A DNA stretch of 64,000 nucleotides from contig NZ_CTDZ01000009.1 in assembly GCF_001375555.1 (NCBI RefSeq), forward strand, positions 3,341,758-3,405,757. The letters are read 5' to 3'. The translations under genes and the position numbers were made by a program. The DNA comes from Numidum massiliense (GTDB taxonomy: Bacteria > Bacillota > Bacilli > Thermoactinomycetales > Novibacillaceae). The notes below the pieces were generated by a model. The model saw nothing but the letters and a program-made list of their open reading frames with translations. It was not told the DNA's origin and searched no databases. Of this stretch, positions 33,230 through 46,582 are shown piece by piece. Within the stretch, counting starts at the first letter, position 1, and each line of letters begins with the position of its first letter.

Positions 33230-33281
33230 ACTCATAGTTGCGATTAACTTTTATAATAATTTGCGAAGGTGGTTGTCTAAC

Positions 33282-34316
33282 GTGCGTGTCGTCATCGTAG
33301 GATCTACCGGCTACGGTGGATTGGAACTCATTCGTTTATGTGAAGCACATCCGCAGTTGGAAATTGGGGCACTCGTTTCTACGTCTGTAGCTGGCGAGGC
33401 ACTCGGTGACGTTTTCCCCCATTTGCGTCCTTTAGAGCTGCCCTTTACGCCGCTTAGCGTCGAAGCAATCGCCACTGCTGGTGAGGTTGTCTTTTTTGCG
33501 ACTCCGGCTGGCGTTAGCAGTGAATGGGTACCGCAGCTACTCTCGCGGGGACTAATTTGTATCGATTTATCGGGGGATTTTCGCTTGCCGGACGGCGAGG
33601 TGTACCGCGAGTGGTACGGGCGAGAAACGGCTACAGACGACGAACTAGCACGCGCTGTTTACGGTTTGAGCGAATGGGAGCGGATCGCCGTGCGCGAGGC
33701 GCAGTTAGTAGCTAATCCAGGGTGCTACCCGACGGCGACACTGCTCGCATTGTTGCCGTTGTTGCAGCAGAAGTTCATCGTTCCGGAGACAGTCGTCATC
33801 GACGCGAAGTCGGGCGTGTCCGGGGCGGGGCGGACGGCGCAGTTGCCGCTGTTATTTACGGAAGTTAACGACAACTTGCGTCCGTACAAAGTGGATCGAC
33901 ACCAACACATTCCGGAAATTGAACATACGTGTCAGCGGGTGACGGGCGAGAGTCTTAACGTCTCCTTTACCCCGCACCTCATTCCGATGAGCCGCGGCAT
34001 TTGCTGTACGGTGTATGCCTCGCTCGTTAGCGGAACGACGCCTAGCGACATTCGCGACGTTTACAGAGATCGTTACGGTACGGAACCTTTTGTACGCCTT
34101 CGTCCACAAGGGGAGTGGCCGCAAACGAAAGATGTGACTGGAAGTAACTACTGTGACATTGCGTTCCAAGTCGATCAGCGCACGGGGCGCGTCATTATCT
34201 TTTCCGTTATCGACAACTTGATCAAAGGGGCCGCTGGGCAGGCGGTGCAAAACTTGAACATACGGATGGGTTGGCCCGAAACGATGGGATTGAGCAGCTC
34301 GCCGCTTTATGTGTGA
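33282..34316 (+). CDS. argC: N-acetyl-gamma-glutamyl-phosphate reductase
   Basis: Third step of arginine synthesis: NADPH reduction of N-acetylglutamyl phosphate to the semialdehyde. The NADP loop VIVGSTGYGGLELIRL is at the N-terminus and the catalytic Cys148 is in NPGCYPTATLLAL; the later motif HQHIPEIEH is conserved. I chose the GTG at 33282, which follows GAAGGTGG, giving 344 residues, the normal length; the longer frame from 33261 adds seven residues. It is the first gene of argC-argJ-argB-argD-carA-carB-argF, with the repressor-overlapped promoter 60 bases upstream. Confidence 0.96.
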   Translation: MRVVIVGSTGYGGLELIRLCEAHPQLEIGALVSTSVAGEALGDVFPHLRPLELPFTPLSVEAIATAGEVVFFATPAGVSSEWVPQLLSRGLICIDLSGDFRLPDGEVYREWYGRETATDDELARAVYGLSEWERIAVREAQLVANPGCYPTATLLALLPLLQQKFIVPETVVIDAKSGVSGAGRTAQLPLLFTEVNDNLRPYKVDRHQHIPEIEHTCQRVTGESLNVSFTPHLIPMSRGICCTVYASLVSGTTPSDIRDVYRDRYGTEPFVRLRPQGEWPQTKDVTGSNYCDIAFQVDQRTGRVIIFSVIDNLIKGAAGQAVQNLNIRMGWPETMGLSSSPLYV

Positions 34317-34412
34317 CCGATGCGGTGGCGACGACCGAGTGATTCAGACGATATGGAGCAAGAAGATGTCGGATGAAAAAATTTAACCTTGCGGAGAGGG
34401 AGAGAGAGTCGG

Positions 34413-35666
34413 ATGAACAGTCACGTACTAACTGCAACAACGCGGGAACAGGGCGACGGGTTTAAAATTGCTGCAGAACCGAGGATTACAGCGCCGCGTG
34501 GGTTCACGGCGGGAGGGATCAACTGTGGCATTCGGCGCTCGCGGCTCGATTTAGGGATCGTCGCTTGCACGGTCCCAGCGACAGCGGCGGCAGTATACAC
34601 GACGAACGCGTTTCAAGCGGCCCCGCTCAAAGTGACACAAGCGAGTTTAGCGATTGAGGGCAAGTTACAGGCGCTCGTCGTCAACAGTGGCGTCGCGAAT
34701 GCGTGCACGGGAGAGAAGGGAGAGCAAGATGCCCGCGCGATTCAAAATGAAGCGGCTGAGCTGCTCGGCATCCCCCCTCACTACGTCGGCGTCGGTTCGA
34801 CGGGGGTGATCGGCGAACGGCTACCGGTAGCGAAAATGGTGAACGGATTGCGTACACTCGCGCCGCGGTTGGCACCGGAGGGCGCGGAACAGTTTTGCGA
34901 GGCGATTTTAACGACCGATACGGTGACAAAAAAAGTGCAGGTGACGGTGACGGTCGACGGCTGCGAGGTGCACATTGCCGGGGCGGCAAAAGGATCGGGC
35001 ATGATTAAGCCAAACATGGCGACGATGCTTAGTTTTATTACGACGGATGCAGTGATCCCCCAGTCCGAGTTAGAGCAGTTGCTGCGGAAGACGACGGACG
35101 ACACGTATAACATGATTACGGTCGACGGCGACACGAGCACGAACGATACGGTAACAGTGCTGGCGAGTGGATTGGCCGAGCACCGTTCGTTGCACGAAGG
35201 ACACCCGGATTGGCTAGCGTTCGCTGCTGCCTTTCACTACGTAAACGAACAGTTGGCACAGGCGATCGCCCGGGACGGCGAAGGGGCGACGAAGTTGGTC
35301 GAAGTGAATGTGTGCGGCGCGCATACGGTGGCCGATGCGCGGCGAGTGGCGAAAACAATCGTCGGTTCGAGCTTAGTGAAGACAGCGGTGTTTGGCGCTG
35401 ACGTCAATTGGGGGCGGGTTATTTGCGCGATCGGTTACGCGGGGGCGTCTTTTGATGCTACTCAAGTAGACATCGCCATTGGCGGGGTGCCGGTCGTGCA
35501 GCACAGCGTCGCGGTCGACACCTTGGAAGCAGACGTACGGGCCGCCATGCAAAGGGAAAAAGTTGTGATCGATGTCGACTTACACTCAGGGGATGTGGGA
35601 GCGACCGCGTGGGGATGTGACCTTACGTACGATTACGTGCGCATTAACGCGAGTTATCGCACGTGA
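34413..35666 (+). CDS. argJ: Bifunctional glutamate N-acetyltransferase / ornithine acetyltransferase
   Basis: Recycles the acetyl group from N-acetylornithine to glutamate, and can use acetyl-CoA in bifunctional members. The precursor cleaves itself ahead of a threonine that becomes the nucleophile, here T204 in KGSGMIKPNMATMLSF, exactly the family motif. The N-terminus has TAPRGFTAGGINCGIR and the C-terminus ends with DLTYDYVRINASYRT, both typical. I chose the ATG at 34413 after GAGAGGGAGAG, giving 417 residues. The gene follows argC by 96 bases. No separate argA or argE is in view, which fits the cyclic pathway. Confidence 0.95.
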   Translation: MNSHVLTATTREQGDGFKIAAEPRITAPRGFTAGGINCGIRRSRLDLGIVACTVPATAAAVYTTNAFQAAPLKVTQASLAIEGKLQALVVNSGVANACTGEKGEQDARAIQNEAAELLGIPPHYVGVGSTGVIGERLPVAKMVNGLRTLAPRLAPEGAEQFCEAILTTDTVTKKVQVTVTVDGCEVHIAGAAKGSGMIKPNMATMLSFITTDAVIPQSELEQLLRKTTDDTYNMITVDGDTSTNDTVTVLASGLAEHRSLHEGHPDWLAFAAAFHYVNEQLAQAIARDGEGATKLVEVNVCGAHTVADARRVAKTIVGSSLVKTAVFGADVNWGRVICAIGYAGASFDATQVDIAIGGVPVVQHSVAVDTLEADVRAAMQREKVVIDVDLHSGDVGATAWGCDLTYDYVRINASYRT

Positions 35667-35705
35667 ATAAAGGCGCGCTGATTTTACGGTTACTGGGAAA
35701 GGTTA

Positions 35706-35742
35706 GTGGCGCCGCGGCAGTGGTGCTGCGGCACATTTTTAT
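35706..35742 (+). terminator. Possible intra-operon attenuating hairpin
   Basis: GCCGCGGCAG and CTGCGGC pair with one bulge and are followed by ACATTTTT, in the 106-base gap between argJ and argB. It could lower expression of the downstream genes; the stem is imperfect. Confidence 0.35.
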
Positions 35743-35772
35743 ACACGTATTCAAAAGGAGTGGGGAGTGGGG

Positions 35773-36615
35773 ATGAAGAACGAAACAGTCGTCATTAAGT
35801 TAGGGGGGAGCTTGCTGGGAGAGCTGCCAGACGCTTTTTTTCAGCAGTGTGCAGCATTGAAGCGCGCGGGTGTGCAGCTTGTCGTCGTGCACGGCGGTGG
35901 GCCAAAAATTAATGCGTACATGGAGCGATTGGCGCTCCCGGCGACGTTCTCGGGGGGGCTGCGCGTGACCGACGCGCCGACACTCGAGCTCGTCGAGATG
36001 GTGCTTGCGGGGACGCTGAATAAACAGATCGTCTCCCGGTTGGAAGGAGCTGGGGCGGCGGCGCTTGGCATTTCCGGTGTCGACCGTGGCTTGCTACGCG
36101 TACAGCCTTATGATAAGGCGCTCGGTTACGTCGGACGAGTCGACCGCGTCCGCGTAGACGTGCTCCGCAAACTGTCTTCCAGTGGGTGGATTCCAGTTGT
36201 CGCTTCGCTCGGCGTCGATGCGCAGGGACAGCATTACAATGTGAACGCCGATAGTGCCGCGGGAGCAATCGCGACCGCGCTCGCGGCAAATAAACTCGTC
36301 TTCGCCACCGACGTTCCGGGCATTTTAGCCCGCGATGGGCAGACGCTGAAGCAAGTGACGCCCCAGCAGCTAGAGCAACTGATCGAGGTGGGGACGATTG
36401 CTGACGGGATGATCCCGAAAGCGCAGGCCGTGTTGACGAGTGTCGCCGGCAATGTCGCCGCTGTCTGTATCGGTGACGGCAAGCATCCTGACATGTTACA
36501 GGCGTTGTACACTGGCGGCGGAGAGGCGTTTCCAGGGACGCGTGTCGTAGTGGAAGGAAGTGAGACAAATGGCGTTAATGGCGACGTATACGCGCTGGCC
36601 GATTACACTCGTTAA
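35773..36615 (+). CDS. argB: Acetylglutamate kinase
   Basis: Phosphorylates N-acetylglutamate, usually the controlled step of the pathway. The family motifs are present: VIKLGGSLL at the N-terminus, VVVHGGGPKINAYM near residue 40, and TDVPGILARDGQTLKQVT in the ATP-binding half. I chose the ATG at 35773; a GTG at 35767 is in frame two codons earlier. The product is 280 residues, about 20 longer than usual, because the frame runs on 47 bases into argD, with an atypical tail (EGSETNGVNGDVYALADYTR). The overlap couples translation of argB and argD but is longer than usual for this gene pair. Confidence 0.94.
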   Translation: MKNETVVIKLGGSLLGELPDAFFQQCAALKRAGVQLVVVHGGGPKINAYMERLALPATFSGGLRVTDAPTLELVEMVLAGTLNKQIVSRLEGAGAAALGISGVDRGLLRVQPYDKALGYVGRVDRVRVDVLRKLSSSGWIPVVASLGVDAQGQHYNVNADSAAGAIATALAANKLVFATDVPGILARDGQTLKQVTPQQLEQLIEVGTIADGMIPKAQAVLTSVAGNVAAVCIGDGKHPDMLQALYTGGGEAFPGTRVVVEGSETNGVNGDVYALADYTR

Positions 36616-37867
36616 AGGAGAGGGCGCCTATGTGTGGGATGACGCTGGGAGGCAATATTTAGATTTTACAGCGGGAATCGGGGTCGTAAACGTCGGGCAC
36701 TGCCACCCGCACGTCGTGCAGGCGCTCGAGAAGCAGGCACACCAATTGTGGCATGTGAGCAACTTGTTTACCGTTCCGGCGCAAGAAGAGTTAGCCGCGC
36801 GGCTGACAGCTGATAGTCACTTGGACGCTGCCTTTTTTTGCAACAGTGGTGCCGAGGCTAACGAAGCGGCGATTAAGTTGGCACGCAAAGTGGCCAGTGA
36901 ACGGAAAGGGATCGAGGCGCCGGAAATTGTGACCTTTACGCATTCGTTTCACGGGCGCACGTTGGCGACGTTGACCGCGACAGGTCAAGAAAAGGTGAAA
37001 CAAGGGTTTGCGCCGCTGCCATCCGGGTTTGAGACGGTACTGTGGGGCGATGCGGCGGCGTTGGCCGAGGCGCTTAAGCCGCACACGGCGGCAGTGATGC
37101 TCGAAGTCGTGCAAGGTGAGGGCGGGTTACGTCCGGCGGACTCCGCGTGGTTACACCAGGTTGCCGAGCTCTGCCGCGCCCGCGATGTGTTACTCATCGT
37201 CGACGAAGTCCAAACGGGAATGGGGCGCACGGGGACACTGTTTGCCCACGAGATGTACGACTTCGCGCCCGATATCGTCACGTTGGCCAAAGGGTTAGGG
37301 AATGGTTTTCCGATCGGTTGTACACTGGCGACGAAGGAAGTCGCACAACATTTTGGGCCGGGAAGCCACGGATCGACATTTGGTGGCAACCCGCTGGCGA
37401 TGGCCAGTGCGCACGCCGTACTCGATGTGTTGACGGCGGAAGGCTTTTTGACCGAAGTAAAGCAAAAAGGGGAATGGCTTAAAGCTGCACTTGCGGAACA
37501 GCTGCACAGTCACCCGCTAGTCGCTGATGTGCGCGGGCACGGGCTAATGCTCGGCATTGCCTTGCGTGAACCGCGCGCGGCGGAACTCATTGCGGCATTG
37601 CAGGGACAAGGCATGCTCGTCTTACCGGCAGGTGCAGACGTCGTGCGCTTGTTACCGCCACTCGTTGTAACGGAAGAGCAGTTAAAAGAAGCGGTCGATT
37701 TACTCAAGGCTGCTTTTGCCGACGCAGTAGCTTCCGCGGATCCGACAGCAGCTTCCGATTCCGCTACACTTACGAAACACGAGAGTCCGTCAACCGTTTC
37801 GGTACCTTCTAATTCCGCTACACCTGCGGGATCTGCTGTCTCTCAGTCGGGGGTGCCGTCGCAATGA
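36569..37867 (+). CDS. argD: Acetylornithine aminotransferase with low-complexity C-terminal tail
   Basis: Pyridoxal-phosphate enzyme that converts N-acetylglutamate semialdehyde to N-acetylornithine. The cofactor lysine is K241 in TLAKGLGNGFPIG; FFCNSGAEANEAAIKLAR and IVDEVQTGMGRTG are the classical class III aminotransferase motifs. I chose the ATG at 36569, eight bases after GGAAGGAAG. Homology ends near residue 383 with EEQLKEAVDLLKAAF, the normal terminus, but the frame continues for about 48 residues rich in Ser, Thr, Ala and Pro. In that tail the DNA TCCGCTACAC occurs twice. The stop overlaps the carA start as ATGA. Confidence 0.95.
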   Translation: MALMATYTRWPITLVKGEGAYVWDDAGRQYLDFTAGIGVVNVGHCHPHVVQALEKQAHQLWHVSNLFTVPAQEELAARLTADSHLDAAFFCNSGAEANEAAIKLARKVASERKGIEAPEIVTFTHSFHGRTLATLTATGQEKVKQGFAPLPSGFETVLWGDAAALAEALKPHTAAVMLEVVQGEGGLRPADSAWLHQVAELCRARDVLLIVDEVQTGMGRTGTLFAHEMYDFAPDIVTLAKGLGNGFPIGCTLATKEVAQHFGPGSHGSTFGGNPLAMASAHAVLDVLTAEGFLTEVKQKGEWLKAALAEQLHSHPLVADVRGHGLMLGIALREPRAAELIAALQGQGMLVLPAGADVVRLLPPLVVTEEQLKEAVDLLKAAFADAVASADPTAASDSATLTKHESPSTVSVPSNSATPAGSAVSQSGVPSQ

Positions 37868-39066
37868 AGGCATACTTCACCTTGCAGTCAGGGGAATCGT
37901 TTAGCGGAAAATGGCTCTGCTCTCCCAGCGGGGCTCAAGGGGGTGTGGTACAAGGAGAGGTCGTCTGTTACATCGGTGCGGGCGGCTACGAGCACGTGTT
38001 GACGAACCCTTTGTACCGCGGGCAGATCGTCGTTTTTACGTATCCGTTAGTCGGCAATTACGGCTTTCCGCTTCCCAAAAGGGAACGGGACCGCGTGACT
38101 GTCGCCGGTGTCGTCGTGAGCGACTACTGCACATTTCCGAGCGCGCCTGATGGGACGGCGACGTTAGCCGACGTGTTAGCAGCGGACGGCGTTCCCGCCT
38201 TGTACGGGGTCGACACACGCGCCGTCGCAGCGTCCCTTCGCGGGCAGGCGTCTGTGTACGGTGCGTTCGGCCTTGCGAGTGGTGCGGAGTCGGTCGCGCG
38301 CATGGCGACAGCGGGGTCTGCGCGTACGGATGTGCACGCGCTGCAGCACGCTGACGTAGGAAAGGCAGTAACGTATGCCGGAGCGGCGGACGCCGCCCAC
38401 CTCGTCGTGCTCGACTTCGGTTGTGTGCAACCGCTCGTCACTCGTTTGCGGGCAGCGGGATACCGCCTGACGATCGTGCCGTACCACTGGTCGGCACCGC
38501 GCATTTTAGCAGTGAAAGCAGACGGGATCGTGTTGTCCGACGGACCAGGCGATCCGCGCAATGTGTGGGCGAGGGCTGCGTCGCTGCCATCCCTCGCTAC
38601 CAAGCTGCCGATGTTCGGTTTTGGGCTCGGTTACCACGTCGCCGCCTTGGCGCTCGGCGCTACGACGACACGCTACCCGTCTCCGTTCCGCGGCATGCGC
38701 CAGCCAGTCGTGCACATTGCTAGCGGACGCGTGCACCACGTGGTGCACCATAGTCGTTACATCGTCGCGAAGCAATCGCTCGCCGCGGCACATTGGAAAG
38801 TAACGCAAGTAAGTACAGACGGGCAGATCGTATTTGCGTGCGAGCACCGCGACTACCCGTTGTACGGTGTGCAGTGTCAACCGCACGCCAGCGAACCACA
38901 CGTTCCGTTGTCGCAGCAGTTACAATACGGGAAACTGTCGCCCGAATCGCGTCAAGCTGGCGATGCATGGCACGCGGTCGAACTGTGGCCCCCGTACTGT
39001 GAGCAGATGTGGCACAGCTTTGCCGAGCGAGTCAATGTTGTGCGAAAGGAGAGCGTCTATGCCTAA
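37864..39066 (+). CDS. carA: Carbamoyl-phosphate synthase small subunit, glutaminase triad lost
   Basis: By position and fold this is CarA, the subunit that normally takes ammonia from glutamine for carbamoyl phosphate. The N-terminal domain is well kept (GGYEHVLTNPLYRGQIVVFTY) and the class I amidotransferase domain has VLDFG and LSDGPGDPRNV. However the catalytic motif usually GICLGHQ is GFGLGYH, putting Gly254 where the nucleophilic Cys belongs (E. coli C269), and the usual QGHPEAS-type motif is QCQPHAS, so Gln339 and His341 replace the His and Glu of the triad. The subunit should not hydrolyse glutamine; CarB might use free ammonia or another glutaminase. Length (400 residues) is longer than the usual 350-380. 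ATG overlaps the argD stop and carB starts before this stop, so it is translationally coupled on both sides. Confidence 0.9.
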   Translation: MKAYFTLQSGESFSGKWLCSPSGAQGGVVQGEVVCYIGAGGYEHVLTNPLYRGQIVVFTYPLVGNYGFPLPKRERDRVTVAGVVVSDYCTFPSAPDGTATLADVLAADGVPALYGVDTRAVAASLRGQASVYGAFGLASGAESVARMATAGSARTDVHALQHADVGKAVTYAGAADAAHLVVLDFGCVQPLVTRLRAAGYRLTIVPYHWSAPRILAVKADGIVLSDGPGDPRNVWARAASLPSLATKLPMFGFGLGYHVAALALGATTTRYPSPFRGMRQPVVHIASGRVHHVVHHSRYIVAKQSLAAAHWKVTQVSTDGQIVFACEHRDYPLYGVQCQPHASEPHVPLSQQLQYGKLSPESRQAGDAWHAVELWPPYCEQMWHSFAERVNVVRKESVYA

Positions 39067-42000
39067 GCGAACGATGTTGCAAAAAGTACTCGTCATCGGT
39101 TCCGGCCCGATTACGATCGGGCAGGCGGCTGAATTTGACTACGCCGGGACACAGGCGTGTCTCGCCCTGAAAGAAGAAGGGGTACACGTCGTCCTCGTCA
39201 ACAACAACCCGGCGACGATCATGACCGACGAGGGAGTGGCAGACACGCTGTACTTGGAGCCGCTCACGGTAGAATCCGTCACGGCGATTATCGCGCGGGA
39301 ACGTCCAGACGGCCTAATCGCCTCAACTGGCGGCCAGACCGGATTGAACTTAGCGCTTGGGTTGGCAAAGTCGGGGGTACTCGACCAATACGAGGTAGAA
39401 CTGTTGGGCACGCCGCTCGCCTCGATTGAAAAAAGCGAGAACCGGGAGCAATTCAAACGCGAAATGCTGCGCATTGGGGAACCGGTTCCCGAGAGCACGG
39501 CGGCGCGAAACGTCGGTGACGCAGAGCGTTTTGCTGCAGAAATTGGCTTTCCGCTCATCGTCCGCCCGGCGTTTACACTCGGCGGTGCGGGCGGCGGAAC
39601 AGCGGCAAATCGCGAGGAACTGCAGCAACTCGTGCGGCGCGGTATACAAATGAGTCCGATTCAGCAAGTACTCGTCGAGCAAAGCATCAAAGGTTGGAAA
39701 GAAATCGAGTACGAAGTGATTCGCGACGCAAACGACACGTGTATCGTCGTCTGCACGATGGAAAATGTCGATCCGGTCGGCATTCACACCGGCGACAGTA
39801 TCGTCGTCGCCCCGGTGCAAACTATGTCTTACGCACAAGAACAAATGCTACGTCACGCCGCGGTAAAAGTCATTCGCACACTCGGAGTGGTCGGCGGGTG
39901 CAACATTCAATTCGGGTTTAACCCCGCGACCAGCCAGTACGCGATCATCGAAGTAAATCCGCGCGTGAGTCGTTCCAGTGCGCTTGCCTCCAAGGCGACC
40001 GGTTATCCGATTGCGCGTGTAGCTGCCAAATTGGCACTCGGTTACCGATTAGACGAAGTCGTCAATCCGCTCACAGGTGCGACGGACGGGAGTACAGAAC
40101 CGGTGCTCGACTACGTCGTCGTGAAGTTGCCGCGCTGGCCGTTCGACAAGTTTCCCCAAGGTGACCGCCAGTTAGGGACGCAAATGAAAGCGACGGGAGA
40201 AGTGATGGCGCTCGACCGCAATTTTGAAGGAGCGCTCATGAAGGCGATCCGCTCTCTCGATACGGGACGGTACGGCTTGTTAGAGGCGGGAACGGATTCC
40301 TTGTCTGACGCCGCGTTACGCCGACGGTTGGCGCAAGCGGACGACGAACGGTTGTTTTTACTCGGCGAGGCGTTTGCCCGCGGCTGGTCGCTCGACGATG
40401 TGCACGATCTAACGTTGATCGATCCGTTTTTTTTATTTAAAGTAGAGCGGCTCGTCAGGTTGGAGCGACAACTGGCGGCGACACCTTGGAAAGAATTGCC
40501 GCAAGAGTTGCTCCACGAGGCGAAGCGGTATGCGTTTTGCGACACGCACCTTGCCACACTGTGTGGAGTCCCGGTAGACACTGTCCGTGCCCGTTGGCAA
40601 CAGTGGGGGTGGCAGCCCGCGTTCAAAAGTGTCGACAGCTGTGCTGCCCAGTATGCGGCGCAGTCGCCGTATTTTTATGCGACCTGGGACGGCGTGGACG
40701 AAGTGGTCGTCACAGGTACAACAAAGGCAATAGAGGCTGCTCCTGCAGCAAACGGAGGTGACGCAACAGGCGCTAAAGACGAAGACGCTGCAAACGCAGC
40801 AGACGTGGCGTTTGTGGAAAGTGCAGCAGCAGTAGGCGCGGAATCGAAGCGGCAAAAAAAAGTACTCGTCGTCGGCTCGGGGCCGATTCGCATCGGGCAA
40901 GGGATTGAGTTTGACTACTGCTCCGTGCACGGGGTAAAAGCGCTGCAGCAGCTCGGCGTCAGAGCCGTCGTCGTCAACAACAATCCGGAGACGGTCAGTA
41001 CAGACTATGTAACTGCCGATCGCCTCTATTTTGAACCGCTCACGATTGACGACGTGCTCGCCGTCGCCGAGAAGGAACGCGTCGACAGCGTGATCGTCCA
41101 GTACGGTGGACAGACGGCGATTCAATTGACGACTGCGTTAGAGGCGAACGGGCTGACTGTACTTGGAACGAGTGCGGAGACGATCGCGCGAGTCGAAGAC
41201 CGGGAACAGTTTTACACGATGCTGAGACAGCTGGCGATCCCACACATCGTCGGGGAAACGGCGGCGTGCGCAGCCGACGTCCTGCCGATCGCCGCGGAAC
41301 TCGGCTATCCTTTACTCGTGCGACCGTCGTACGTCATCGGCGGGCAAGGGATGCAAATTGTGCACAGCGAGGGGCAACTGCGCCACTTGTTACAGCGAGA
41401 GTCGTATCAGCCTTCTGCATACCCCCTATTGTGTGACCGCTACGTCGAAGGCGAGGAAATCGAAATCGACGTCGTCACCGACGGGTGTGACGTAGCGATC
41501 CCGCTCTTCATTCGCCAAGTAGAGAAAGCGGGCGTCCACTCCGGCGACAGCATTGCCTTTTTCGGTGCGGAAGGCATCGCGGAAAGCGTCCAGCGCGACA
41601 TCGTCACATACACTGAGAATATCGCCCGGGCGTTACAGCACAAAGGCGTGCTCAACATTCAATTCGTCGTCGACGGGGACACCGTGTACGTGTTAGAAGT
41701 GAACGCGCGGGCGTCGCGCACCGTACCGCTCGTCAGCAAAGTGACAGGGTACCCGATCCTGCTGTGGGCGACGCGCGTGCAGCTGGGCGAGAAACTGGCT
41801 GACTTTGCCCCGTGCGGACTACTTAAGGAACCGCGCGGGTTCGCAGTAAAAGCACCGGTGTTTTCCGCGGAAAAACTGCGCGGAATCGATGCCGCCCCGA
41901 GCCCGAATATGCGCTCGACCGGAGAAGTGATCGGTCTCGGAGCGACTCCAGAAGAAGCGTTTGGCAAGGCCGTGCCAGAAGTACGCGCTCTGTGGGACGG

Positions 42001-42439
42001 CGACGGTGCAACAGGTGTACTGTTCAGCGTGTGCGACAGTAAAAAGGCGGCACTCGTCCCGTTTGCGCAACAATTGCACGATCGCGGAGTCCCGTTGTTT
42101 GCGACGGCGGGTACTGCGACGGCGCTACGGGCGCACGGGCTGAAGGTGACCGCTTGTTCGCTCGAGGAAGCACTCGGGCACATTGCCGCCGCGCGCATCC
42201 GTGCGGTCGTCAACGTGCCGACGCAGGGCGGCGAGGCGGATCGCGCCGGACGCAGGGCGGCGAGGCGGATCGCGCCGGCTTCCGCCTGCGTGAGCAATGC
42301 TTGTTGCACGGGGTGCCACTCTTTTATTCACTTGAAACGCTCGCCTGGTCTCTCCGCGTGCCACAAGAGCAGACGGCGCCTCGCGTTTCTTCGTTGGCAC
42401 AATTTCGCGCCAACGCATGAGTCGTGTGCCAACGCATGA
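39059..42439 (+). CDS. carB: Carbamoyl-phosphate synthase large subunit, C-terminus shifted by 29-bp duplication
   Basis: Makes carbamoyl phosphate from bicarbonate, ammonia and two ATP. Both ATP-grasp halves are present: VLVIGSGPITIGQAAEFDYAG opens the first and VLVVGSGPIRIGQGIEFDYCS the second, with VEVNPRVSRSSALASKATGYPIA and VLEVNARASRTVPLVSK as conserved metal-binding motifs. The linker between halves holds an unusual insert of about 45 residues rich in Ala and Asp (40700-40850). Near the end an exact 29-base tandem duplication (42220-42277) shifts the frame; deleting one copy restores GGEADRAGFRLREQ and a normal end at 42420 (1110 residues). As given, the last roughly 56 residues of the allosteric MGS-like domain are replaced and the frame stops at 42439. 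The ATG overlaps carA by eight bases after GAAAGGAGAG. Confidence 0.92.
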   Translation: MPKRTMLQKVLVIGSGPITIGQAAEFDYAGTQACLALKEEGVHVVLVNNNPATIMTDEGVADTLYLEPLTVESVTAIIARERPDGLIASTGGQTGLNLALGLAKSGVLDQYEVELLGTPLASIEKSENREQFKREMLRIGEPVPESTAARNVGDAERFAAEIGFPLIVRPAFTLGGAGGGTAANREELQQLVRRGIQMSPIQQVLVEQSIKGWKEIEYEVIRDANDTCIVVCTMENVDPVGIHTGDSIVVAPVQTMSYAQEQMLRHAAVKVIRTLGVVGGCNIQFGFNPATSQYAIIEVNPRVSRSSALASKATGYPIARVAAKLALGYRLDEVVNPLTGATDGSTEPVLDYVVVKLPRWPFDKFPQGDRQLGTQMKATGEVMALDRNFEGALMKAIRSLDTGRYGLLEAGTDSLSDAALRRRLAQADDERLFLLGEAFARGWSLDDVHDLTLIDPFFLFKVERLVRLERQLAATPWKELPQELLHEAKRYAFCDTHLATLCGVPVDTVRARWQQWGWQPAFKSVDSCAAQYAAQSPYFYATWDGVDEVVVTGTTKAIEAAPAANGGDATGAKDEDAANAADVAFVESAAAVGAESKRQKKVLVVGSGPIRIGQGIEFDYCSVHGVKALQQLGVRAVVVNNNPETVSTDYVTADRLYFEPLTIDDVLAVAEKERVDSVIVQYGGQTAIQLTTALEANGLTVLGTSAETIARVEDREQFYTMLRQLAIPHIVGETAACAADVLPIAAELGYPLLVRPSYVIGGQGMQIVHSEGQLRHLLQRESYQPSAYPLLCDRYVEGEEIEIDVVTDGCDVAIPLFIRQVEKAGVHSGDSIAFFGAEGIAESVQRDIVTYTENIARALQHKGVLNIQFVVDGDTVYVLEVNARASRTVPLVSKVTGYPILLWATRVQLGEKLADFAPCGLLKEPRGFAVKAPVFSAEKLRGIDAAPSPNMRSTGEVIGLGATPEEAFGKAVPEVRALWDGDGATGVLFSVCDSKKAALVPFAQQLHDRGVPLFATAGTATALRAHGLKVTACSLEEALGHIAAARIRAVVNVPTQGGEADRAGRRAARRIAPASACVSNACCTGCHSFIHLKRSPGLSACHKSRRRLAFLRWHNFAPTHESCANA
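42220..42277 (+). repeat. Exact 29-bp tandem duplication in carB
   Basis: Two adjacent identical 29-base units (42220-42248 and 42249-42277), beginning GACGCAGGGCGGCGAGG. The unit is not a multiple of three, so it shifts the reading frame. Confidence 0.95.
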
Positions 42440-42443
42440 GTCG
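42409..42443 (+). repeat. 16-bp direct repeat at the end of carB
   Basis: GCCAACGCATGAGTCG occurs at 42409-42424 and 42428-42443, a 19-base period. The unshifted carB frame stops at the TGA of the first copy and the shifted frame at the TGA of the second. Confidence 0.9.
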
Positions 42444-42504
42444 GCAGGTTACAACCATTTTCACTAGTAGAACGGTATCTCTCCATTTAGAAAGGAGCGT
42501 TTTT

Positions 42505-43470
42505 ATGTCGGACAGTGAGCAAAGCGTAACTAAAACTACCGCACAGTCGTTAAAGGGTCGTCACTTTTTGACACTGCTAGATTACAGTACCGCACAATTA
42601 CAGGGGCTCGTCTCGTTAGCGGCGCAACTCAAACAGCAGCATAAAGAAGGAGTCCCGTACCGGCCGCTAGCAGGCAAAACGTTGGCGATGATTTTCGCCA
42701 AAGCGTCAACGCGGACGCGGGTCTCGTTTGAGACAGGGATGTATCAACTCGGCGGGCACGCCCTCTTTTTAGGGCAAGACGATATTCAATTAGGGCGGGG
42801 GGAGACCGTTGCCGACACGGCGCGGGTCCTCTCGCGCTACGTCGATGGCATCATGGTTCGCACTTTTTCCCATAGCGACGTCGTCGAACTCGCCCGCTGC
42901 GCCAGCGTGCCGGTCATTAACGCGTTGACGGATCGCTTTCATCCTTGTCAAGCGCTCGCCGATATGATGACCTTAATGGAACAGTTCGGCGACGTTAAAG
43001 GACGAAAACTGGCGTACATCGGCGACGGCAACAACATGGCCCACTCGCTGTTAGCCGGAGCCGTAAAGTTCGGGATGCACGTTGCCGTCGCTGCGCCACC
43101 CGGCTACGAGCCACTCGCTGACATTGTCGCCGAGTGCCGGTCAATAGGAAAAGAGACGGGCGGCACCGTGACGATTACGAACGAACCACAAGTGGCAGTA
43201 GCAGGTGCCGACGCCGTCTATACGGATGTGTGGGCAAGTATGGGGCAAGAAGCGGAGACTGCGGAGCGACTGCAAGCGTTCCAGCAGTTTCAAGTCGGTG
43301 AGTCGCTTTTGGCGCAAGCGACGGAGCATGCCGTCTTTATGCACTGCTTACCGGCTCACCGCGGCGAAGAAGTGACAGCTGGCGTCATCGATGGCGCGCG
43401 TTCGGTCATCTTCGAGCAAGCGGAAAACCGCCTACACGCACAAAAGGCGATTTTAGCGAGTTTATTGTGA
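42505..43470 (+). CDS. argF: Ornithine carbamoyltransferase
   Basis: Joins carbamoyl phosphate to ornithine to give citrulline. The phosphate-binding loop KASTRTRVSFE, the carbamoyl-phosphate site HPCQALADMMT and the ornithine/metal motif FMHCLPAHRGEEV are all present in the expected order. I chose the ATG at 42505, which follows AAAGGAGCG, giving 321 residues; the longer frame from 42424 overlaps the carB repeat region. It is the last gene of the arginine operon. Unlike its neighbours carA and carB, it shows no damage, so the ornithine-to-citrulline step should work if carbamoyl phosphate is available. Confidence 0.96.
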   Translation: MSDSEQSVTKTTAQSLKGRHFLTLLDYSTAQLQGLVSLAAQLKQQHKEGVPYRPLAGKTLAMIFAKASTRTRVSFETGMYQLGGHALFLGQDDIQLGRGETVADTARVLSRYVDGIMVRTFSHSDVVELARCASVPVINALTDRFHPCQALADMMTLMEQFGDVKGRKLAYIGDGNNMAHSLLAGAVKFGMHVAVAAPPGYEPLADIVAECRSIGKETGGTVTITNEPQVAVAGADAVYTDVWASMGQEAETAERLQAFQQFQVGESLLAQATEHAVFMHCLPAHRGEEVTAGVIDGARSVIFEQAENRLHAQKAILASLL

Positions 43471-43535
43471 CCTCTTTTTATCACTTTTTATTATTAGGAA
43501 GGCAGGTTGGGCGTTCACTAGTAAGGAGGCGGTTG

Positions 43536-43718
43536 CTACCCCTTTTTCTCTTCGCGGGCGAGGACGAATACGAGTACGGAGGCGATGAAGGCGATCGCCG
43601 CACTAATCATATACAATAGACGCGACATATAAAACAGTTCGGTCTCTTCGGGAAAGTTTGGTCGAGTTAGTTTTTGCCTCCAGTTTGGCGGGTGTCGCCT
43701 ACGCACAGGTTGTGGCAT
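43536..43718 (-). CDS. Small membrane protein with C-terminal helix, 60 residues
   Basis: I do not recognise a family. The ATG at 43718 follows GAGGGATG; the 60 residues comprise a basic and proline-rich N-terminal half (PQPVRRRHPPNWRQKL) and one long hydrophobic helix (LLYMISAAIAFIASVLVFVLA) ending in REEKKG. This topology, with a positively charged short tail after the helix, suggests a membrane protein with a soluble N-terminus. A longer frame to 43829 exists but lacks a ribosome binding site. It lies antisense in the gap between argF and argG and is unlikely to belong to the arginine pathway. Confidence 0.55.
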   Translation of the reverse strand: MPQPVRRRHPPNWRQKLTRPNFPEETELFYMSRLLYMISAAIAFIASVLVFVLAREEKKG

Positions 43719-43870
43719 CAGATCATCCCTCACTTTCTGTCCTACATGTATATTCAACAATAATAAAAGTTGATAATGCTTAGTGGCGACAGCGCAATCG
43801 GCACTCACTATCTCATGAATAAGCGGCAACCGAAAGTAGAAAAAAAACTAGCTTTTTGCGCGGAACTGTG

Positions 43871-43876
43871 TATAAT
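43871..43876 (+). promoter_or_regulatory. Probable -10 element for argG-argH
   Basis: TATAAT lies 43 bases upstream of the argG ATG in an AT-rich stretch (TGTATAATTATTCTT) that resembles half of the argC operator; the -35 is weak. Arginine repressor control is likely but not shown. Confidence 0.45.
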
Positions 43877-43918
43877 TATTCTTAAGGATGAATGATTATT
43901 TAGGGGGACGATGTTTAC

Positions 43919-45163
43919 ATGGCTAAACAAAAAGTGGTGCTAGCCTATTCGGGCGGCTTAGATACGTCAGTGGCGATCAAGTGGTTGCAAGATAAATACG
44001 GATACGATGTCATCGCCGTCGCGCTCGATGTCGGGGAAGGGAAGGACTTAAACTTTGTACGGGAAAAAGCGTTACAAGTAGGCGCGATTAAATCACTCGT
44101 CATCGACGCGAAAGAGATGTTTGCCGAGGAATTTCTAAAACCGGCGTTGAAGACGAATGCGATGTATGAAGGGAAGTACCCACTCGTGTCGGCGCTGTCG
44201 CGGCCGCTCATCGCCAAAGTGTTAGTACAAGTCGCGGAAGCGGAAGGGGCCGAGGCGATTGCGCACGGGTGTACGGGAAAGGGGAACGATCAGGTGCGGT
44301 TCGACGTCGCCGCAGCGGCGCTAAACCCGGATCTACAAGTGATCGCTCCGGTGCGGGAGTGGGCGATGTCGCGCGAGGAAGAAATTGCCTATGCGAAAAA
44401 CCACAATATTCCCGTGCCAGTCGATGTCGACAAGCCGTACAGTGTCGACCAAAACTTGTGGGGTCGCAGTAACGAGTGCGGCATTTTAGAAAATCCGTGG
44501 GCGGAGCCGCCGGAAGATGCCTACGAGTGGACAGCACCTTTAAACGAGACGCCCGATGAGCCGGCTGAAATTGAATTGACGTTTGAAAAAGGGGTTCCCG
44601 TCGCACTCGACGGTAAAAAAATGACGCTCGCAGCGCTCATTTCCAAACTGAATCAACTGGCAGGTAAGCACGGCGTCGGACGGATCGACCACGTCGAAAA
44701 CCGTCTCGTCGGCATTAAGTCGCGCGAAGTGTACGAATGTCCGGCAGCGGTGACGTTAATGACGGCGCACAAAGAGCTAGAGTTTTTGACCCAGACGCGG
44801 GACATTTGCCAGTTTAAACCACTCGTCGAACAAAAATGGGCCCAGCTCATTTACGAAGGGCTATACTTCTCCCCGCTCAAAGACGCCCTCGACGCCTTCG
44901 TCGACGAGACACAGCAGTATGTCAGCGGTAAAGTACGCGTCAAGTTGTTTAAAGGCCACTGCACGGTGACAGGACGCACCTCGCCACAGTCGCTGTACAA
45001 CGAAGAGCTAGCGACATATACGGCTAACGATACGTTTGACCACTCGGCAGCCGTCGGTTTTATCGAGCTGTGGGGTTTGCCGACGAAGGTGCACGCCCAA
45101 GTGACCAAAAAGCACGCTCAAGGGAGTTTCGTCGTCAAGGGCGAACAAGTCGAGCAGTTGTAG
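43919..45163 (+). CDS. argG: Argininosuccinate synthase
   Basis: Condenses citrulline and aspartate with ATP. The N-terminal PP-loop [14 protein letters not shown] (residues 9-22) is the pyrophosphatase motif of the family, and [12 protein letters not shown] (about 120) and [21 protein letters not shown] are also diagnostic. The product has 414 residues, close to the usual 400-410. ATG at 43919 follows GGGGGACG. argH starts 12 bases after the stop. The gene pair is separated from the argC-argF block by 450 bases and has its own -10 element, so it is probably a second unit of the arginine regulon. Confidence 0.97.
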
Positions 45164-45175
45164 GGGGGATCGACA

Positions 45176-46582
45176 GTGACAAAAATGTGGGGTGGGCGCT
45201 TCACCCAACCGACGAATAAATTGGTAGAGGCCTACACGGCCTCTCTTGCGTTTGACCGCCGTTTGGCAGAAGAAGACATCCGTGGGAGCCTAGCGCACGT
45301 GCACATGCTCGGTAAAATCGGCGTATTAACGCAAGACGAAGTGACGACGATTAGCGACGGACTACAGAACGTGCAACAAAAAATCGCCGCCGGCGACGTA
45401 ACGTACGATGTGGCCGACGAAGATATTCATATGAGTGTGGAAAAGTGGTTGACGGAGGCGATCGGCCCGCTCGGCGGCAAACTGCACACCGGGAGAAGCC
45501 GCAACGACCAAGTCGCCCTCGATTTGCACTTGTACGTGCGCCGCGCGACGGTTGACGTCGTGCGCCTCACCGCCGCCCTGCAAGAGGCGCTGCTCGCACA
45601 GGCAGAGGCGCACGTCGATACGGTTTTGCCCGGCTACACCCATTTACAGCGGGCACAGCCGATCCGCTTCGCACACCACTTACTGGCGTACGTGGCCATG
45701 TTTGGGCGCGACATTGCGCGACTGATCGACAGTTACGCGCGTGTCGACGTCTGTCCGCTCGGTGCGGGCGCGCTTGCCGGCGCTTCGTTCCCGCTCGATC
45801 GCCACATGGTTGCAGAGGAGCTCGCTTTTGCCGACCTGTACGACAACAGCATTGACGCTGTGAGTGACCGCGACTTCGTCGTCGAGTTTTTAAGTGGGTG
45901 TGCGCTGCTCATGACGCACTTGTCGCGCTTGTGTGAGGAACTCGTGCTCTGGTCGAGCCAAGAATTCGCCTTTATCGAATTAGACGACGCCTTTTGTACC
46001 GGTTCGAGTATTATGCCGCAGAAGAAAAATCCGGACGTCGCCGAACTCGTGCGCGGCAAGACCGGCCGGGTGTACGGAAACCTCGTCGCGCTTCTGACTG
46101 TACTCAAAGGGCTGCCGCTCGCTTACAACAAAGACATGCAAGAAGATAAAGAAGGATTGTTTGACACGGTCGACACTGTCGTCGGCGCGCTTAAGCTTAT
46201 GGCTCCGATGATGGCGACGATGCGCGTCAACGGCGCTAACATGCGGCAAGCGGTGGAACAGGACTTTTCTAATGCGACTGACTTAGCCGACTATCTCGTG
46301 CGCAAAAACATTCCGTTTCGCCAGGCGCACGAAATTGTCGGGAAAACGGTGTTGTACTGCATCGCGCAGCAGAAATTTTTACTCGACCTCAGCCTAGACG
46401 AGTTTCGACAGTTTGCGCCAAAAATCGGCAACGACGTCTACGAGGCATTGGCGATCGAGCGAGTCGTCGATGCACGCGACGTGTACGGCGGGCCTGCGCG
46501 AGAACAGGTGGAAATTGTGATAGAAAAAAGAAAAAGCGCATTAAGTGAAACTGAACAGTGGTTGAAGCACGTTAACCTATAA
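45176..46582 (+). CDS. argH: Argininosuccinate lyase
   Basis: Splits argininosuccinate into arginine and fumarate, the last step of the pathway. The fumarase/aspartase superfamily signature [12 protein letters not shown] is present near residue 280, along with [17 protein letters not shown] and [11 protein letters not shown] earlier, which hold the catalytic residues. The 468 residues are slightly above the usual 455-465. The GTG start at 45176 follows GGGGGGATCG. A strong terminator follows. Together with the operon upstream, the window encodes every arginine step from acetylglutamate, so the only missing capacity is a proven glutamine-dependent carbamoyl phosphate supply. Confidence 0.97.

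Follow-up and report, generated by a model that had tools for sequence, protein, structure and literature searches.

Loss of the glutaminase triad from the only CarA of Numidum massiliense points to carbamoyl phosphate synthesis from free ammonia

The only carbamoyl phosphate synthetase (CPS) small subunit in the genome of Numidum massiliense, the CarA of its arginine cluster, carries Gly, Gln, and His at the three positions of the Cys-His-Glu glutaminase triad. Judged from these residues, the known glutaminase chemistry is impossible in this protein. We consider it likely that both CPS large subunits (CarB) of the genome make carbamoyl phosphate from free ammonia, and that CarA persists as a folded, glutaminase-dead remnant that serves as a noncatalytic partner. 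All of the evidence on the CarA and the CarBs is computational; the use of ammonia in vivo, an association between this CarA and CarB, and the selection behind the change are the parts that we infer.

Loss of the triad in the arginine cluster

The window, the whole stretch of 64,000 nucleotides that was analyzed, contains an arginine cluster in the order tkt-argCJBD-carAB-argFGH. Its features are as follows, with identities given relative to G001, the single same-family relative that was compared.

33261..37867, + strand: argC, argJ, argB, and argD, upstream of carA (open reading frames; 58-71% identity to the G001 cluster)
37864..39066, + strand: carA, CPS small subunit with the triad lost (400-aa open reading frame; PF00988 and PF00117 above cut-off; alignment)
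38623..38625, + strand: carA codon 254, GGG, Gly where E. coli CarA has the catalytic C269 (sequence, alignment)
38878..38886, + strand: carA codons 339-341, Gln-Pro-His in place of the normal His-Pro-Glu of E. coli H353 and E355 (sequence, alignment)
38899..39003, limits approximate, + strand: additional stretch, about 35 residues long, that follows the HPE motif (alignment; modeled with low confidence, pLDDT 50-58 in residues 341-370)
39059..42439, + strand: carB, encoding the arginine operon's CPS large subunit, in which each synthetase half is intact (TIGR01369, 1308 bits; 322 of 343 invariant columns)
42220..42278, + strand: perfect 29-bp tandem duplication in the arginine carB (tandem repeat; tblastn with a relative's CarB switches frame there)
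42424..46582, + strand: argF, argG, and argH, downstream (open reading frames; 70-80% identity to G001; the argF start is possibly later than 42424)

When aligned to E. coli CarA, H353 corresponds to Gln339 (CAA, 38878-38880) and E355 to His341 (CAC, 38884-38886), and the two motifs read LPMFGFGLGYHV and VQCQPHAS. The triad is C-H-E in 49 of the 49 Cys-type CarA sequences of the alignment. Most of the residues that bind glutamine have gone as well: S47, Q273, N311, H312, and G313 are altered in an alignment with E. coli CarA and about 50 relatives. An earlier note on this DNA had reported the loss of the triad, together with the limits of the reading frame, an open frame that keeps LSDGPGDP, and coupled starts. 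Each of these points held when the sequence was reread and aligned. The usual form of LSDGPGDP is LSNGPGDP. The start codon of carA, an ATG at 37864, shares bases with the stop codon of argD (ATGA), and that of carB, an ATG at 39059, sits within the 3' end of carA.

The protein is still recognizable as a member of the CarA family. It adjoins carB and exceeds the curated cut-offs for both PF00988 (103 bits) and the GATase domain PF00117 (87 bits), and with such scores the change in the triad is neither chance nor misalignment. It falls short of TIGR01368, the glutamine-hydrolysing model (215 bits against a cut-off of 307), on which its same-family sister scores 425 bits, and it passes the looser model NF009475. 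A pattern-based search for relatives of the locus that started from this CarA returned none; the protein is too divergent for the patterns used. Directly before carA, ArgD ends in a tail (37720-37863) of some 45 residues that is rich in Ser, Thr, and Pro, contains repeat-like stretches, and falls outside the alignment with the ArgD of G001.

One CarA and two CarBs in the genome

The genome (3.76 Mb in nine contigs, rated 100% complete) contains one CarA and two CarBs. A second carAB had been suggested as something to look for in the pyrimidine cluster, and half of such a pair turned up there: the second carB lies in an operon that we read from its open reading frames as pyrR, uraA, pyrB, pyrC, carB, pyrK, pyrD, pyrF, and pyrE. 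In this otherwise complete operon, pyrAA is absent from between pyrC and carB, the pyrC stop joining the carB start directly (TGAGTG), which leaves the window CarA as the only one in the genome. A PF00120 search of the whole genome found no glutamine synthetase, an enzyme that was found in 14 of 14 control genomes. In G001, pyrAA occupies its place in the pyrimidine operon, both CarAs have an intact C-H-E triad, and there are two glutamine synthetases, which indicates that the losses are specific to the window lineage.

Because the arginine and pyrimidine operons are otherwise complete, carbamoyl phosphate is still needed. With the sole CarA dead and both the second CarA and glutamine synthetase lost, its most likely source is free ammonia. 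The earlier note had named free ammonia as one option, and the gene content favors it; one CarA and no glutamine synthetase also suggest that ammonia may be the sole nitrogen donor. An anabolic carbamate kinase of the Pyrococcus type was rejected as a source, as the genome has no arcC-type gene (TIGR00746; best score 25 bits, at argB, against a cut-off of 358).

Condition of the two subunits

The pyrimidine CarB retains 331 of the 343 invariant columns. With nearly all of these columns kept in either CarB, both synthetases are intact. Departures in both proteins cluster at about residues 336-346 and 519-547 (7/25 and 8/25 invariant columns); in the other CarBs the same windows have 0 to 1 of 25 changed, except for 3 of 28 in the frame-broken pyrimidine copy of G001. 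The drifted segments lie in the carboxyphosphate and oligomerization domains, the two through which E. coli CarB contacts CarA (PMC6245113). The drift may reflect a CarA interface that is being abandoned, more so in the pyrimidine CarB without its own CarA, although this reading is a lead and not proof given that the windows were picked after the data had been viewed. Both CarBs also have long Ala/Glu-rich insertions between the synthetase halves (arginine protein, about residues 545-600; pyrimidine protein, encoded at L004 6521-9874), at a site where the arginine CarB of G001 is short. The 29-bp duplication in the arginine carB shifts the frame, which replaces the last ~55 residues of the regulatory domain and brings the open reading frame to its end at 42439. 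This duplication is a recent mutation or an assembly fault.

CarA itself has diverged rapidly. It is 35.5% identical to its G001 counterpart, compared with 58-80% for argC, argJ, argB, argD, carB, argF, argG, argH, and tkt. A careful tree places it within the clade of its order (100/99), with the arginine CarA of G001 as its sister (96/78), and it has evolved about nine-fold faster than that sister (end branch, 3.26 versus 0.36). A quick tree had grouped it with Lederbergia-type Gly CarA (support, 44), a placement that we attribute to long-branch noise. Among 99 columns conserved in Cys-type CarA, it keeps 60 and has lost 39, and residues that most Gly-type CarA proteins retain are lost from it as well.

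Taken with the frameshift in carB, the divergence and the lost residues mean that the arginine enzyme could be decaying. At its extreme, CarA would be a near-pseudogene with no role, and the two CarBs, or the pyrimidine CarB alone, would use ammonia for all carbamoyl phosphate. That pyrAA has already gone and that both CarBs have drifted at the presumed CarA interface (in windows chosen post hoc) would fit such a history. Nevertheless, we regard it as rather unlikely. The frame has remained free of stops for 400 codons despite saturation-level change (chance of ~5e-6 to 9e-6 in random sequence of CarA composition), codon bias matches that of neighboring genes, the overlapping starts are retained, and the catalytic halves of the arginine CarB are conserved. 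Furthermore, an AlphaFold2 model predicts a CarA fold with good confidence (pLDDT, 87.8; pTM, 0.88), although the alignment of relatives biases the model toward that fold, and its best structural matches are to E. coli CarA, including 1c30 (C269S), and then to human CPS1. The open frame, codon bias, and fold make it likely that carA is not a simple pseudogene, as had been claimed, but the nine-fold acceleration keeps that claim short of proof. The companion suggestion that CarA has become structural draws support from the predicted retention of the fold and from the recurrence of Cys-to-Gly changes elsewhere. CarA is thus probably a retained noncatalytic subunit under weak constraint.

Another alternative, also raised before, is that glutamine is still used, with a different glutaminase or amidotransferase supplying ammonia to CarB. 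The genome has five class-I amidotransferase genes including CarA, but the other four (PyrG, GuaA, a PuuD-like hydrolase, and one in the his cluster beside hisA) all belong to other pathways, none is near carB, and there is no glutamine synthetase to provide the glutamine. Cys motifs are kept in PyrG, GuaA, and the PuuD-like protein, the three that were read, so CarA stands out and there is no free amidotransferase as a stand-in. We know of no case in which another amidotransferase is shared with CPS, and supply of this kind seems very improbable.

Cys-less CarA across bacteria

We scanned 399 Bacilli genomes with a pattern that allowed most residues except Cys at the nucleophile. It matched in 13 genomes, with Gly at the nucleophile in 15 of 15 matches. 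The reversed pattern matched nothing in the same 399 genomes, which argues against chance as the source of the matches. One match (L083) proved to be something other than CarA and was dropped. Across GTDB, a scan for the Gly form returned at least 120 matches; among the matches listed, 111 of 120 were CarA, and these came from Bacillota, Bacteroidota, Actinomycetota, Pseudomonadota, Planctomycetota, and Verrucomicrobiota. The remaining nine of the 120 listed were chance frames or other amidotransferase-like proteins, none of which resembles TrpG/PabA, which share the motif.

An alignment of 123 non-Cys CarA sequences (122 Gly, 1 Ser) revealed wide variation at the His and Glu positions, a pattern that fits loss of the glutaminase rather than a new mechanism. 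In a larger sequence set, the Cys type also departs from C-H-E in a few copies with C-H-D and in one with C-F-A. The sole CarA of another genome in the same order (L022, genome G013) has Ser-Gln-Glu, the same Cys-to-Ser change as in human CPS1, and that genome has kept glutamine synthetase. On a tree of 214 CarA sequences, parsimony required at least 19-23 state changes, their direction not being inferred and a single tree method being used. We therefore rejected a single ancient clade of Gly CarA, given that at least 19 changes persisted after branches with support below 90 were collapsed and the motif columns removed.

Copy number varied as well. The 40 genomes reached via Gly loci comprised 20 with a single CarA, 9 with two copies that were both Gly, and 11 with Gly plus Cys. 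Two-copy Bacilli had Gly in both copies in 11 genomes and were mixed in two (G069, Streptococcus agalactiae); S. agalactiae ATCC 13813 (L125, L233) has one Gly-type and one Cys-type CarA. In the genus Sporosarcina, 9 of the 10 sampled genomes have Gly CarA as their sole CarA and 1 has no CarA. The median dN/dS of Sporosarcina Gly CarA is 0.042, at a median dS of 1.85 that is near saturation, which indicates that strong purifying selection acts on the dead subunit in this genus. Two other genomes with no CarA (G038, G053) were set aside, as CarB was missing from them too. The surveyed genomes include MAGs, many of them of unrated completeness.

Could CarA have taken on a new function, for instance as a regulator of CarB whose former glutamine pocket now accepts another ligand? 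Fast change, an extra loop, and retention of the gene in the operon might be read in this way. However, the other Gly-type CarA proteins show drift at the old site with no new fixed site, one genome of the genus is available for finding a motif, and we give the idea little credence. A sequencing or assembly error behind the triad loss, for which the exact 29-bp duplication in the next gene, carB, might be cited, can be dismissed for practical purposes, since the frame is open yet differs at three separate codons and at dozens of further conserved positions, and since glutamine synthetase and pyrAA have also been lost from other parts of the genome.

Loss of glutamine synthetase tended to accompany loss of the Cys. 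The 44 genomes without Cys CarA included 8 in which the enzyme was missing or broken, compared with none of the 27 whose CarA is exclusively of the Cys type, an association that is suggestive only (Fisher P = 0.017, or 0.08 if Sporosarcina is counted once). The eight are the window genome, five Sporosarcina, Aliibacillus thermotolerans, and Virgibacillus sp. MSJ-26. The enzyme was likewise missing or broken in an Opitutales MAG, one of eight mixed Gly-plus-Cys genomes, and in the one Sporosarcina genome that has no CarA. Among the genomes surveyed, every one that had lost the enzyme had also lost Cys CarA in one copy or more. Glutamine synthetase persists in most genomes with Gly CarA, so its loss is neither the cause of the CarA change nor necessary for it.

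Discussion

If our preferred reading is correct, the two CarBs would combine bicarbonate, two ATP, and cytosolic free ammonia, and not glutamine, to make carbamoyl phosphate for arginine and pyrimidines. Ammonia may enter CarB directly or via a CarA pocket opened by the absence of a side chain at Gly, after which carboxyphosphate would be aminated and carbamate phosphorylated as usual. CarA would be kept for now, under weakened constraint, as the noncatalytic partner of the arginine CarB, whereas the pyrimidine CarB would already work with no dedicated CarA. The change in CarA may be part of a wider shift in nitrogen metabolism that includes the loss of glutamine synthetase, and the window case would be one of many independent conversions of bacterial CarA, nearly always from Cys to Gly.

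Several known systems resemble this one in part. Replacement of the nucleophile alone is known from the E. coli CarA mutants C269S (the protein of 1c30) and C269G, which retain ammonia-dependent activity; the window CarA is natural, and the rest of its glutamine site is eroded. E. coli CPS requires a very high concentration of ammonia when ammonia is the donor (PMC6245113), but E. coli CarB is cited as forming carbamoyl phosphate from ammonia in vivo without a working CarA (Rubino 1987, cited in PMC3017870). That example, as cited, concerns a laboratory strain, whereas the window genome has a natural pyrimidine operon without pyrAA. NAD synthetases likewise include glutamine- and ammonia-using enzymes within one family, although their glutaminase domain is nitrilase-like and unrelated to that of CarA (PMC3376133).

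With respect to the two main classes of the enzyme, the window system descends from bacterial CPS II (E. coli carAB; B. subtilis carAB and pyrAA-pyrAB), with which it shares the two CarA domains, CarB, and the places in the operons. It differs in having neither the triad nor the glutamine site, in the absence of pyrAA, and in its predicted dependence on ammonia. In CPS I, the vertebrate mitochondrial CPS1, a dead glutaminase-like moiety is likewise retained as structure (Cys to Ser in human) and external ammonia is taken (PMC4655335). The window CarA, as modeled, similarly retains a glutaminase-like moiety with an incomplete triad. Yet CPS1 is a single fused polypeptide of the animal lineage, while the window CPS has separate carA and carB, is of Bacilli descent and independent origin, has Gly instead of Ser, and has lost the His and Glu too. 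Our verdict is that the CPS of the window genome would be like a bacterial CPS I by function and is, by descent, a CPS II minus its defining chemistry.

On balance, we lean toward the view that ammonia-only CPS arose many times in bacteria through a pseudo-glutaminase CarA (nearly always Cys to Gly), as it did once in vertebrate CPS1, that under ammonia-rich life styles the change is accompanied by loss of glutamine synthetase and can end in the loss of CarA, with the window genome late on this path. Glutamine was described in a 2015 structural paper as the donor of every CPS type but CPS1 (PMC4655335), and we found no report of a natural Cys-less bacterial CarA in the open-access literature, a search that left subscription journals mostly outside its scope. 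Our findings indicate that many bacteria, including most sampled species of the widely used genus Sporosarcina, carry a CarA that should be unfit for glutamine hydrolysis by the known mechanism. This has consequences for annotation and for metabolic models, in which ammonia-dependent synthesis of arginine and pyrimidines would be predicted, and it offers natural replicates of the transition from a channeled amidotransferase to an open ammonia enzyme. Beyond the earlier note, the analysis adds a genome-wide case (pyrAA deleted, glutamine synthetase lost), a wide bacterial spread, and the duplication in the arginine carB.

If true, our reading would also contribute, in a testable way, to explaining why Sporosarcina pasteurii has long been reported to require ammonia. 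A paper that cites older work describes this species as dependent on ammonia and as having neither glutamine synthetase nor glutamate synthase activity (PMC7775470), which fits a cell that is rich in ammonia and poor in glutamine. In one genome of the genus (G382:C1:1289519-1289887), glutamine synthetase is present only in short broken pieces, which suggests a recent loss.
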